Source: Flavobacteriales bacterium
Lineage (GTDB): Bacteria > Bacteroidota > Bacteroidia > Flavobacteriales_G > Salibacteraceae
Assembly (NCBI GenBank): GCA_018660685.1
Contig: JABJJW010000012.1
Coordinates: 310,001-374,000, forward strand
Length of the DNA stretch: 64,000 nt
Direction: 5' to 3'
The notes under the pieces are model-generated. The model was given only the letters and a program-made list of their open reading frames with translations, ran no database searches and was not told where the DNA came from. Both the position numbers and the translations under genes were made by a program. Positions 2,801 through 10,690 of this stretch are shown here, piece by piece; the stretch's first letter is position 1; each line of letters opens with the position of its first letter.

Positions 2801-3973
2801 TTACATCATCTCAATAACTCCTGCGGCACCTTGACCAGTTCCCACGCACATGGTTACGATGCCATATTTCTGATCTCTGCGCTTTAGTTCATTCAACAAT
2901 TGAACGGTGAGCTTAGCACCAGTGCACCCTAAAGGATGCCCGATTGAAATGGCTCCTCCATTCACATTTACTATTTCTTGATTCAATCCAAGCTCTCTTA
3001 TAACCGCAAGAGACTGAGACGCGAAGGCCTCGTTCAGTTCAATTAGGTTGATGTCGTCGAGTGTTAGCCCAGCCTGCTTCAAAGCCATAGGTACCGCTTC
3101 AACCGGGCCAATGCCCATGATGCGAGGAGGAACACCTGCGACCGAATAGGACTTAAGGCGAGCGATGGGTTCCACGTTCAATTCTTTCAACATCTTTTCG
3201 GACACGACCAAAACAAAGGCGGCGCCGTCGCTGGTTTGTGATGCGTTTCCAGCCGTTACCGTTCCTTTTGCATCAAAGACCGGTCGAAGTTTTGCAAGTC
3301 GGTCAAGACTGGTGTCCGGGCGCGGACCCTCATCTGTGTCAAACACATAAGATCTGGTTTTTCGCTTGTCACCTTCAACATAAACCTCTTGCACTTCAAT
3401 TGGTGTGACTTCATTTTTAAATGATCCATTCTTAATGGCCTCAATCGCCTTCGTGTGTGAGCGATAGCCAAATTCATCTTGATCTTCTCGACTCACTTTA
3501 TATTCATTGGCGACTGCCTCGGCGGTTAGACCCATTCCCCAGTAATAATCGTGTTGTTCTTGGGAGACTTTTGCATTCGGAACGATGCGCCACCCACCAA
3601 ATGGGATTGGGCTCATGCATTCTACTCCGCCAGCAATAATGCAATCCGCGAGTCCGGCGTGAATTTTAGCTGAAGCAATAGCAATGGTCTCGAGACCTGA
3701 AGAACAATAACGATTTACCGTCATGCCGGGAACTTTGTCCGTATCTAAGCTCATCAAGGAAATCATTCGACCAACGTTCAAGCCTTGTTCCGCCTCTGGA
3801 GTAGCATTCCCAACGATGACATCTTCGATTCGCTCCCTGTCAAGGTTTGGGACTCCACTCAACATGTCTTGGATTACGGTAGATGCGAGATCATCCGGCC
3901 GCGTGAATCTCAGCTTTCCTCTGGGCGCCTTTCCAACCGCTGATCGTTTTCCCTGTATGATGTATGCATCCAT
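2801..3973 (-). CDS. fadA: acetyl-CoA C-acyltransferase (thiolase)
   Basis: Thiolase of 390 residues that cleaves 3-ketoacyl-CoA with CoA to acetyl-CoA and a shortened acyl-CoA, the last step of beta-oxidation. All catalytic elements are visible: the nucleophile C90 in [11 protein letters not shown], the NEAFA motif, H346 in [16 protein letters not shown], and the second active-site cysteine C376 in [10 protein letters not shown]. Length is normal for the family. The start is 13 bp downstream of the stop of the two-domain dehydrogenase at 3987, so they are almost certainly cotranscribed. The order regulator, dehydrogenase/hydratase, thiolase resembles the Bacillus fadNAE arrangement. A purely biosynthetic acetoacetyl-CoA thiolase is less likely given the neighbours. 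Confidence 0.95.
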
Positions 3974-6985: not shown

Positions 6986-7002
6986 CAGCTGCTTTGAAAT
7001 TC

Positions 7003-9450
7003 ATGAAATCACTACTTACACTTTGCCTCACTCTGAGCATGTTTATTGGACTCGCTCAGAAGGATGTTACGCTATCCGGATACGTCAATGAAAACGAGTC
7101 TGGGGAAGGGATGATTGCCGCTACAGTTCTTGTAAAAGAGCTTGGTGTGGGTACCTCTTCTAACGAATTTGGATTCTACTCAATTTCGCTTCCACCTGGC
7201 ACCTATACCATTGAATGGTCATTCGTTGGCTTCAATACTGTTTCAGAACAAATTGAACTAACCCAAAACATTACTAAGAATGTTGCTTTGGGATTTGGGG
7301 AGACGATTTTAGATGAAGTAGTAATCACCGGGGAGAGAGCAGATGTCAACGTTACAAGCGTCGAAATGAGCGTCGAAAAAATGGATATCCAGCTGGTGAA
7401 GAAAATGCCCTCGCTCATGGGAGAAGCAGATATCATAAGGTCGATTCAGTTACTTCCAGGAGTCACCACAGTGGGCGAAGGAGCTACCGGGTTTAATGTA
7501 AGAGGGGGAAATGTTGATCAAAATTTAATTTTATTAGACGACAGTCCAGTATTCAGCTCCTCGCATTTGTTTGGATTTTTTTCTGTCTTCAATGCGGACG
7601 CAATTAAATCCACGAAGCTGTACAAAGGCGGCATGCCTGCCAAGTACGGAGGACGACTTTCATCGGTTCTTGACATTCGCCAGAAAGAAGGAAACATGAA
7701 GAAGCTGGAGGTCAATGGTGGCGTTGGCCTTCTATTTAGCCGATTGACCATCCAAGCACCAATTGTAAAAAACAAGGCTTCCTTTATTCTCTCAGGAAGA
7801 CGCAGTTATTTCGATTTGTTCTTTCCTCTTGCTAAAAACGAAACAATCAAGGACACGAGGTTGTATTTCTACGATCTTAACGGTAAGGTCAATTGGATTA
7901 TCAATGACAAAAATCGAATCTACTTGGCAGGGTACAATGGCAGTGACGTTTTTAATCTCGCACAATCATTTAGCACACGCTGGGGAAACACAACAGGTTC
8001 GCTTCGATGGAATCATTTGTTCTCTGACAAGCTTTTCTCAAATTCAACATTAGTCTATAGCAAATATGATTATGCGCTTGGTGCTGAAACAGATGCATTT
8101 GGGTTCGATTGGTTGGCAAGCATAGAAAACTACAGTGCTAAAATTGATTTCACCTACTTCCTAAATCCAAAAAATAAGATTGATTTTGGATGGCAAAGCA
8201 CATACTACATTTTCAGGCCGGGCAAGGCAACTGGCTTCTTTGAAGTTCAGGATACGGTACAGGAGTTTGAATCGGAGATTCAGAGTATTCCTGCCGTTGA
8301 AACCGCACTTTACATAAGCAACGAACAAAAGATTGGAACAAGGCTGACAATCGCATATGGTCTTCGTTGGAGTGGTTTTGCTCAAGTTGGAAAAGGCGAC
8401 ATCTATACCTATGACAATGGGCCGATCGATCCTGAAAATCCCACTTCAACAATTTCGCCGGACGATACAGTTCAATTCGAAGCAGGCGAAATTGTGAAAG
8501 CCTATCACGGTATTGAACCAAGACTCAGTGTCAATTACCAGCTGAACGAAGTGTCTTCCATCAAAGGAAGTTATAACCGAAATCGGCAGTACATACACCT
8601 GATTTCAAACACCACAGCGGCAACACCGGTGGATATTTACATGCCTGCAGGACGATACATTAAACCAGGTGTGGTCGACCAAATCGGACTCGGGTATTTT
8701 AGAAACTTCGCGGATAATACGTATGAAAGTTCCGTGGAGGTTTACTACAAGAAGTTTCAAGACCTTGTAGATTATAAGGACGAAGCCGAGCTCCTATTTA
8801 ATAATACCATTGAAACCGAACTGTACTCGGGAGGAGGTGAAGCATATGGGCTCGAATTTCAATTCAAAAGATCAAAAGGAAAACTAACAGGATGGGTTAG
8901 CTATACTCTATCACGAGTTGTTCGAGACGTTGAAGAAATCAACAATGGTGACCCTTATCCGGCAAACTGGGACAAAACGCATGATGTCAGTGTTGTTGTA
9001 AGCTATGACATCACTGAAAGCATCAATGTCTCTTCCAACTTTGCGTACATGACTGGGCGACCCATCACCTACCCAGATGGTAGGTTCACCTTTGGAGAAG
9101 TAACAGCACCGCTCTATACAAAACGCAATGGGGCTCGTACTCCGGATTATCACAGACTTGATTTAGCCCTGAATTTCAATTTGAGTAAGGAAGGCCATAA
9201 CGTTATTCCTCTCGCGCTGGCTGGCTGGATTTGGCCGATGATTCCTTTCTACTACGGATGGCGTTACACTCCGCTGAAAAAGGTCGTTGACATGGACTTG
9301 TCGGTTGGAGTCTACAATCTCTATGGTCGAAAAAACCCTTACTCGGTTTACTTCCGACAGGACCCAGATCAACCAGCAGTCACCAAGGCTTACCAGCTTT
9401 CGATATATGCTATTCCAATTCCTTATGCTACTCTAAACTTTAAATTCTGA
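7003..9450 (+). CDS. TonB-dependent receptor with carboxypeptidase-regulatory-like domain
   Basis: Outer-membrane active transporter of 815 residues. The start is the ATG at 7003 (MKSLLTLCLTLSMFIGLAQ), which gives a clean signal peptide; an in-frame TTG nine bases upstream is less likely. Residues about 20-100 form a carboxypeptidase-regulatory-like beta-sandwich (VTLSGYVNENESGEG ... GFYSISLPPGTYTI). The plug follows, with IQLLPGVTTVGEGATGFNVR and GGNVDQNLILLDD. The rest is beta-barrel and the chain ends in an aromatic F-K-F as expected for BAM substrates. The stop overlaps the start of a DUF4249 lipoprotein by one base (TGATG). TonB receptor plus DUF4249 lipoprotein is a recurrent Bacteroidetes pair, analogous to but distinct from SusCD. 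The substrate is unknown; no catabolic enzymes adjoin. Confidence 0.93.
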   Translation: MKSLLTLCLTLSMFIGLAQKDVTLSGYVNENESGEGMIAATVLVKELGVGTSSNEFGFYSISLPPGTYTIEWSFVGFNTVSEQIELTQNITKNVALGFGETILDEVVITGERADVNVTSVEMSVEKMDIQLVKKMPSLMGEADIIRSIQLLPGVTTVGEGATGFNVRGGNVDQNLILLDDSPVFSSSHLFGFFSVFNADAIKSTKLYKGGMPAKYGGRLSSVLDIRQKEGNMKKLEVNGGVGLLFSRLTIQAPIVKNKASFILSGRRSYFDLFFPLAKNETIKDTRLYFYDLNGKVNWIINDKNRIYLAGYNGSDVFNLAQSFSTRWGNTTGSLRWNHLFSDKLFSNSTLVYSKYDYALGAETDAFGFDWLASIENYSAKIDFTYFLNPKNKIDFGWQSTYYIFRPGKATGFFEVQDTVQEFESEIQSIPAVETALYISNEQKIGTRLTIAYGLRWSGFAQVGKGDIYTYDNGPIDPENPTSTISPDDTVQFEAGEIVKAYHGIEPRLSVNYQLNEVSSIKGSYNRNRQYIHLISNTTAATPVDIYMPAGRYIKPGVVDQIGLGYFRNFADNTYESSVEVYYKKFQDLVDYKDEAELLFNNTIETELYSGGGEAYGLEFQFKRSKGKLTGWVSYTLSRVVRDVEEINNGDPYPANWDKTHDVSVVVSYDITESINVSSNFAYMTGRPITYPDGRFTFGEVTAPLYTKRNGARTPDYHRLDLALNFNLSKEGHNVIPLALAGWIWPMIPFYYGWRYTPLKKVVDMDLSVGVYNLYGRKNPYSVYFRQDPDQPAVTKAYQLSIYAIPIPYATLNFKF

Positions 9451-10439
9451 TGAAGAGAATCCTGATATATTTCTGTGCTGTTGCACTGGTATCGCTGAGT
9501 GCATGCGAAGAGGAAATCTCGTTGGATCTGCCTGAGAATGAAGCTGAACTAGTCATTGAAGGCTATATGGTAGATCTCGATTTTTATATCCCGGACGGAG
9601 ATCTTGATTGTAGCGGAATTATCACTGTGCCCCATGAGCAGATCGTTTTTGCTGCAAGTTTAGCAGCTGAGTTTCCGATTGATTCAATCGAATCCGAAGC
9701 GGATTACTTTCCCTTCAACAAGGTTAAATTGACAACGACCAGCAACTATTTCTCGAATTCAGAATCACCAACCGTGAGTGACGCTGTCGTGAAACTATTC
9801 AAGGATAAGAACTTAGTAGAAACCTTGGTGGAAGATCCAGAATTGCCGGGCGTATATCGGATCACACATGACCCAGATGCATCTGGTGAGGCGTATTATC
9901 ATTTAGAAATTGATGCCCTCGGAAACTTTTATGAGACTGTACCCGAATTGTATGTGTCAACTCCTCCTCTTATAGGAGTTAGTGCAAACTATGGACCTAA
10001 CTTCCTCGGCGACAGTTGTGCCTACTACATGGGAATGGACACGTATGAAACTCCAGGCTTGGGGGACAACTACCGCTGGATGTTCTACATAAACAATGAA
10101 TACGTGAGTAACCCCGGCTTTATCGCAGGGTCGAATGACGATAACTTCGATGGTCTTTGCTTATTTGGCATAGATGTATACGGAAATGAACTTGAACTAG
10201 GCGACACGGTTGTGGTCTTTCAATTGCGTGTCAGTGATACTTACTCCAGCTTTATTGGGTCGTTACAAAACCAGACTGCTTTTGTTGGTTCTCCGTTTGA
10301 CACTCCTCCAGCTCCAATACGAGGCAATCTAAAGAATGTGACAACTGGGATCAATGCGTTTGGCTATTTCAGTGCAGGAGGTATTTCGGCGAACTTGGTC
10401 GTAGTACCGGACACCATTCCTGACGAACCTTGCAACTAA
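9450..10439 (+). CDS. DUF4249 family lipoprotein, partner of the TonB receptor
   Basis: Predicted surface or outer-membrane lipoprotein of 329 residues. The signal ends with the lipobox SLSAC, followed by the typical DUF4249 opening EEEISLDLPENEAELVIEG. A further four cysteines lie in the mature part (DLDCSG, DSCAYY, GLCLFG and the C-terminal EPCN), possibly two disulfides. It starts in the stop codon of the TonB receptor (TGATG), so translation is coupled and the two proteins probably form one uptake complex in the outer membrane. The family is known by context to accompany TonB receptors, but the ligand is not defined for it, and none can be read here. Confidence 0.88.
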   Translation: MKRILIYFCAVALVSLSACEEEISLDLPENEAELVIEGYMVDLDFYIPDGDLDCSGIITVPHEQIVFAASLAAEFPIDSIESEADYFPFNKVKLTTTSNYFSNSESPTVSDAVVKLFKDKNLVETLVEDPELPGVYRITHDPDASGEAYYHLEIDALGNFYETVPELYVSTPPLIGVSANYGPNFLGDSCAYYMGMDTYETPGLGDNYRWMFYINNEYVSNPGFIAGSNDDNFDGLCLFGIDVYGNELELGDTVVVFQLRVSDTYSSFIGSLQNQTAFVGSPFDTPPAPIRGNLKNVTTGINAFGYFSAGGISANLVVVPDTIPDEPCN

Positions 10440-10500: not shown

Positions 10501-10528
10501 TACCTTTGTTTAGAATAATTCTAAACAA
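10501..10528 (+). promoter_or_regulatory. -7 promoter element overlapping a perfect Fur-type dyad
   Basis: TACCTTTG at 10501-10508 fits the Bacteroidetes -7 consensus TAnnTTTG. It overlaps a perfect inverted repeat at 10506-10528 with 11-bp arms TTGTTTAGAAT and ATTCTAAACAA around a single central A. The core TTAGAAT-A-ATTCTAA has the 7-1-7 form bound by Fur-superfamily regulators (Fur, PerR, Zur, Irr). The loop would be one base, so it is not a transcription terminator. A repressor here would block the promoter of the small gene starting at 10559. The regulator's identity is inference. Confidence 0.6.
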
Positions 10529-10558
10529 GCTTTGATCCGTACAGCCACTCCTCCGACT

Positions 10559-10690
10559 ATGCAAGAACCGTGTATCGCGGTACAGCTATTTGGTGAATAC
10601 TCCATTGAGCAACTACTGCTTAAGAAGAAGTGTTGTAAAAAGTTTAAGAAGAAGGGAAAGAAGGCTTGCAAGAGCTGCCCCACTCACTGA
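10559..10690 (+). CDS. 43-residue Lys/Cys-rich small protein
   Basis: Short gene read directly from the sequence: ATG at 10559, TGA at 10688, 43 residues. The N-terminal half is mixed (MQEPCIAVQLFGEYSIEQ) and the C-terminal half is extremely basic with paired cysteines: KKKCCKKFKKKGKKACKSCP. Five cysteines occur, arranged as C, CC and CxxC. Its own promoter element and a perfect Fur-type dyad lie 31-58 bp upstream, which argues strongly that it is a real, regulated gene. I recall similar CCKK-[YF]-KKKGK-type mini-proteins in Bacteroidetes but cannot check. A role in metal binding or nucleic-acid contact is possible; no function is established by the sequence. It sits between the TonB/DUF4249 pair and a convergent glycosyltransferase. 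Confidence 0.7.
   Translation: MQEPCIAVQLFGEYSIEQLLLKKKCCKKFKKKGKKACKSCPTH

Follow-up and report, generated by a model that had tools for sequence, protein, structure and literature searches.

A conserved mini-protein gene with a predicted Fur operator and an FhuF-type cysteine motif, adjacent to ferritin genes in many Bacteroidota

Results

Gene content and promoter of the locus

The window (the whole 64-kb stretch of DNA analyzed, G000:C22:310001-374000) belongs to the 2.58-Mb genome of a marine bacterium. It carries a TonB-dependent receptor gene and a DUF4249 lipoprotein gene, followed by a promoter box, a perfect palindrome and a very short gene encoding a Lys-rich, Cys-containing mini-protein (Table 1). 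The DUF4249 gene adjoins the mini-gene across the genus and in a member of another genus (G015), and the order is identical in loci L057 and L058. Within the genus of the window the mini-gene lies beside the DUF4249/TonB pair and not beside ferritin; the ferritin gene of this genome is on another contig. No FhuF_C domain scored over the cut-off in the window genome, and neither Fer2_BFD (PF04324) nor any Bfd-type ferredoxin was found in the 13 genus genomes searched (0 of 13).

Table 1 Features of the mini-gene locus (positions in the window)
Feature	Position	Strand	Basis
TonB-dependent receptor, carboxypeptidase-regulatory-like domain	6994..9450	+	PF13715, PF07715; 5′ of the DUF4249 gene
DUF4249 lipoprotein, gene 5′ of the mini-gene	9450..10439	+	PF14054, E 3e-8
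Bacteroidota-type −7 promoter box (predicted), TACCTTTG (TAnnTTTG)	10501..10508	+	sequence
Fur operator (predicted), perfect 11-1-11 palindrome TTGTTTAGAATAATTCTAAACAA	10506..10528	.	unique in window; conserved 5′ of orthologues; Fur-box match
Mini-gene; probable product 52 aa from TTG 10532 (43 aa from ATG 10559)	10532..10690	+	ATG in orthologues at the TTG place; purifying selection; 11 of 13 genus genomes
C-C-x10-C-x2-C-P core, FhuF-type [2Fe-2S] motif (predicted), Lys-rich loop	10631..10681	+	TIGR03950 positions 201-222 of 223, E 0.0018

An earlier, sequence-only reading had described a perfect inverted repeat with 11-bp arms around one base, lying on a TAnnTTTG box. Both features are present, and the dyad overlaps the TTG of the −7 box TACCTTTG; the −33 element of this promoter is weak by eye. 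By direct counting, TTGTTTAGAATAATTCTAAACAA is the sole perfect 11-1-11 palindrome (23-mer) in the window, and a general repeat search did not report it. A search of the 2.58-Mb genome found the 17-bp core TTTAGAATNATTCTAAA exactly once without mismatch. That reading had also proposed that the dyad be sought upstream of the gene in relatives; a dyad with at most two mismatches is there in 10 of the 11 gene-bearing genomes of the genus (the exception being G010); in G015, outside the genus, the dyad upstream of the mini-gene was perfect.

The mini-gene is conserved and coding

The same reading had placed a 43-residue frame between ATG 10559 and TGA 10690. The reading frame stands, whereas the start is probably 27 bases too far downstream. 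Homologues in the genus open with an ATG a few bases 3′ of the dyad, at the position of TTG 10532 in the window, so the TTG is more likely to be the start than ATG 10559, and the product is likely to have 52 residues. The short Lys/Cys frame, which it had suggested seeking in related genomes, is conserved in 11 of 13 genus genomes; the two genomes in which it was not found are 78% and 82% complete. Among 20 core codons compared in 12 genomes, the third position varied in all 20, the first position in 5 and the second position in 6 (pN/pS approximately 0.08, with pS saturated). This concentration of variation at third codon positions shows that the frame is coding and under purifying selection, and we regard the gene as almost certainly real.

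The Fur-type dyad and the same gene recur in dozens of Bacteroidota, with the dyad just 5′ of the gene. Homologues outside the genus were collected with a degenerate DNA pattern that fixes the Cys spacing; the resulting counts are lower bounds, and the family is larger than counted. Two loci (L099 and L113) were left out as chance pattern matches, and L154, whose C-terminus is that of a true FhuF, was treated separately. A first scan of genome contigs for relatives confirmed none, and we guess that filtering of the Lys-rich query was the cause. A 26-position model matched 2 of 394 genomes in a sample of the phylum, its own genome included, which is probably an undercount because the E cut-off is strict for so short a profile. 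No Pfam family covers the mini-protein, and Fer2_BFD and FhuF_C likewise gave no match to the window protein. Literature searches for the peptide, and for FhuF together with ferritin in flavobacteria, turned up no prior description; the family appears to be unnamed so far.

The dyad resembles a Fur box

In Riemerella anatipestifer (Flavobacteriales) the Fur box has the consensus ATTTAGAATTATTCTAAAT and lies <100 bp from the start codon, and purified Fur bound fragments with such boxes in gel-shift assays (PMC5609570). On the minus strand, the window site equals this box at 17 of 19 positions, 3 to 30 bp 5′ of the start. The core is identical, whereas the outermost bases of the window site are G/C and not A/T, and its arms lengthen the dyad to 23 bp. 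The genome holds one FUR-family gene (E 7e-24); the best NCBIfam match of its product is a Fur model, yet the protein falls below all Fur/PerR cut-offs of NCBIfam.

Within 100 bp upstream of the listed homologues from other genomes, the half-site TTTA[GA]A[AT]T occurred in 72 of 106 cases, as compared with 13.8 in shuffled sequences (maximum 23). Their aligned operator consensus is approximately TTATTTAGAWTnAWTnnAAATAA. Relative to TTTAGA, the start of the −7 box is 8, 14 or 15 bases upstream at most loci and 20 bases downstream at five. This variable position of the box relative to the dyad points to a repressor site and not to an RNA element. A reading of the dyad as an RNA hairpin was ruled out, since at about six Vicingaceae-type loci the dyad sits 5′ of the −7 box and hence outside the expected transcript, whereas at most others it is 3′ of the box.

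Similar dyads were found elsewhere in the genus. The congener G004 has two (L050:3507-3523 and 3578-3594, G004:C1), with one mismatch each, 5′ of an operon encoding a T9SS-sorted HmuY-like protein, a DUF6607 protein, a small membrane protein and a TonB receptor. Of the 13 genus genomes, only 1 has DUF6607. The Fur-type operator proposed in the sequence-only reading is thus supported by the match to the R. anatipestifer box, by the single FUR-family gene and by the dyads before the HmuY-like operon. Judged from these comparisons, the dyad is very probably a Fur operator, and operator and gene family together are well supported.

A related dyad (L056:3423-3439, corresponding to G000:C20:7422-7438; also L051, L052, L053 and L054; for example, TTAGGAATGATTCTTAA and TCTAGAATGATTCTTAA) lies between tRNase Z-like and NarL-type response-regulator genes in at least five genus genomes. 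It is possibly a second target of the regulator of the mini-gene.

The cysteine motif is of the FhuF type

The arrangement C-C-x10-C-x2-C is present in the window protein and in those genus members that a plain similarity search recovered. It is also present in 107 of 107 listed members found with the pattern, which itself imposes the spacing. In two more distant relatives (L013 and L014), the loop is one residue shorter. FhuF holds its [2Fe-2S] cluster with C-C-x10-C-x2-C, a motif termed unprecedented; fhuF is Fur-controlled, and no template for the cluster was to be had for modeling FhuF (PMC8068687).

When 75 listed members were scanned against 18,950 NCBIfam models, the top three families were all FhuF-type models (TIGR03950, 72 members; TIGR03951, 51; PRK10647, 6). 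Ten decoys (shuffled, shuffled with Cys fixed, and reversed) gave zero matches to the NCBIfam models. FhuF_C (PF11575) matched 7 of the 75 weakly (best E 0.021), as compared with 1.7e-7 for the true FhuF C-terminus of L154. The window protein scored 18.1 bits against TIGR03950 (cut-off 137.9), with only 52 residues and a match to the last approximately 22 positions of the model. This confinement to the last 22 positions points to a stand-alone cluster end and not to an FhuF. In one ferritin-linked member (L162), the C-terminus, CCSRFKKKGKTYCKDCPLS, falls between the mini-protein type and that of true FhuF (FhuF_C, E 0.056).

Most relatives have one to three extra Cys in the N-terminal half (the region of 10532-10630 in the window; for example, PPCIAVQF and SPCxxxxCxxxCGG), and others have none. 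These residues possibly form a second metal site or a docking segment.

The AlphaFold model was of modest confidence (pLDDT 69.5, pTM 0.39; block means of 74-86 for residues 21 to 50), with a helix at 24-40 running through CC and a short turn at CxxC. As a prediction it is neutral with respect to a cluster, speaking neither for nor against one. A Foldseek search of the model against the PDB gave no match, and a PDB sequence search gave nothing useful.

Ferritin is the commonest upstream neighbor in relatives

Among the 100 listed loci with a callable upstream gene, the first upstream gene was a same-strand ferritin in 56 (PF00210, E 1.5e-31 for a representative). The linkage spans at least seven named genera (Aquimarina, Lacinutrix, Psychroserpens, Pontimicrobium, Winogradskyella, Wenyingzhuangia and Urechidicola). 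Because a genome has one or few ferritin genes among thousands, the linkage exceeds chance, with the caveat that, being related, the species do not count as independent samples.

At the 56 ferritin-linked loci, the box lies between the two genes in 50, and both the box and a T-run do so in 44, an arrangement suggestive of separate control for the two genes. At five loci there is neither T-run nor box; in three of these, the ferritin stop codon is 87-95 bp from the CC codons, a spacing compatible with a single ferritin/mini-gene operon. Most mini-proteins have a net charge of about +10 to +12, and the listed ferritins carry −8 to −16 per subunit.

Other upstream neighbors were a cation-efflux gene, a hemoglobin-like gene, aspS and DUF4249/TonB. 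At five loci (L064:4006-5100, L063, L107, L180 and L181), the gene directly 5′ of the mini-gene encodes a cation-efflux (CDF) transporter, and a Fur-type dyad is absent; the CDF-linked mini-proteins of one genus have a long Lys-rich tail. At six others (L098, L101, L159, L169, L170 and L177), it lies 3′ of a short gene that we take to encode a truncated hemoglobin, an identity that Pfam did not confirm, and the dyad is mostly 5′ of the −7 box.

Discussion

To our knowledge, the recovery of iron from ordinary ferritin is largely an open matter; it is for bacterioferritin that a ferredoxin partner is well defined. The mini-gene adjoins a ferritin gene in many relatives, and its product may thus serve to retrieve stored iron. 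With plentiful iron, metal-loaded Fur would cover the −7 box and the start site and keep the mini-gene off; under iron shortage, Fur would leave and the mini-protein would be made. It would then carry electrons one at a time and reduce the ferric iron in ferritin, or in another ferric store, so that Fe2+ comes out. In function it would be the counterpart of Bfd, with another cysteine motif. A role of this kind is favored by the Bfd-like regulatory logic, by the iron-storage partner gene in many relatives and by the opposite charges of mini-protein and ferritin. We lean, if slightly, towards a Fur-controlled FhuF-type [2Fe-2S] mini-ferredoxin that gives electrons to ferritin for iron release in the manner of Bfd. 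That iron release from ferritin is its main role we hold to be evenly balanced. The broader proposal, that ordinary ferritin has its Fur-controlled partner for iron release in a widespread Bacteroidota family of approximately 50-residue FhuF-type [2Fe-2S] proteins, as bacterioferritin has in Bfd, is tentative and in our estimate falls somewhat short of probable. For the organism of the window, we infer ferritin as the partner from the loci of its relatives.

The cluster is predicted from the motif, and the mini-protein probably carries one, although the four Cys could also hold zinc. The sequence-only reading had left a choice among metal carrier, chelator and regulator. The evidence now favors a specific FhuF-type [2Fe-2S] mini-protein linked to ferritin. 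As a zinc or iron chaperone or buffer, the mini-protein would hold one ion with its four Cys and dock on ferritin or a transporter through its Lys, without redox activity. The four invariant Cys, the additional Cys of many members and the adjoining cation-efflux gene in one genus fit such a protein. The exact FhuF spacing and the specific matches to FhuF models, with negative decoys, do not, and the site is of the Fur rather than the Zur type and the neighbor is an iron store; we consider a chaperone quite unlikely. A zinc-finger-like, Lys-rich and Fur-regulated nucleic-acid-binding regulator, tuning the expression of ferritin or of further iron genes, would agree with the small size, the high positive charge and the ferritin linkage. 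No match to a DNA-binding or RNA-binding family was found, however, the acidic ferritin surface accounts for the charge equally well and the motif is specific to FhuF, which together make a regulator highly improbable.

An iron-related redox role could also be served without ferritin. The mini-protein might be the stand-alone electron-transfer end of a reductase for ferric siderophores or imported iron, perhaps acting with DUF4249/TonB, ferritin being merely a regulatory neighbor elsewhere. Such an arrangement would explain the FhuF-type motif and the Fur box, the DUF4249 and TonB receptor genes directly 5′ in the genus, and a genome in which no FhuF_C passes the cut-off. Against this, ferritin is the commonest neighbor among the listed loci, the mini-protein has no FhuF substrate-binding domain, and the DUF4249/TonB pair, with a stop of its own, has no established link to iron; on balance we find this explanation unlikely. 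The signal itself might be peroxide or another cue if the dyad were bound by a different regulator, whether an unrelated factor or the single FUR-family protein acting in a PerR-like way. That protein falls below the NCBIfam cut-offs, and a similar dyad also precedes a response-regulator gene. The site nevertheless equals a Fur box that genetic work on Fur and gel shifts identified in a member of the same order, the best model for the protein is Fur, and dyads precede a heme-uptake-type operon in G004, so another regulator seems improbable.

The electron-transfer reading, with Fur as the predicted repressor, provides a directly testable candidate for iron release, as a tiny protein with putative Fur control and a predicted cluster is encoded beside ferritin in many Flavobacteriaceae. 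If true, the unusual cluster motif of FhuF would occur in the mini-protein in a minimal natural form. Here, an operator led to a gene family that has no Pfam model.

Three known systems bear comparison. Like the FhuF family (TIGR03950, TIGR03951 and PF11575), the mini-protein has C-C-x10-C-x2-C at its extreme C-terminus, usually followed by Pro, and putative Fur control; unlike it, it shares only approximately 22 residues, has no large helical domain, has a Lys-rich loop and scores far below the cut-offs. Bfd is a small [2Fe-2S] protein that gives electrons to bacterioferritin under iron shortage (PMC12363616). The mini-protein is similarly small, proposed to carry a [2Fe-2S] cluster, linked in many relatives to an iron-storage gene and expected under iron shortage; such a gene adjoins it in the majority of listed relatives with a callable neighbor and in none of its own genus. 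It differs from Bfd (PF04324) in having no BFD domain and a ferritin as partner gene, in a genus without Bfd. In Firmicutes, Bfd homologues are also found with the IMEF encapsulins, which store iron (PMC6668986). There, too, a [2Fe-2S] protein is encoded with iron-storage cargo, whereas the mini-protein has a different motif and belongs to Bacteroidota.
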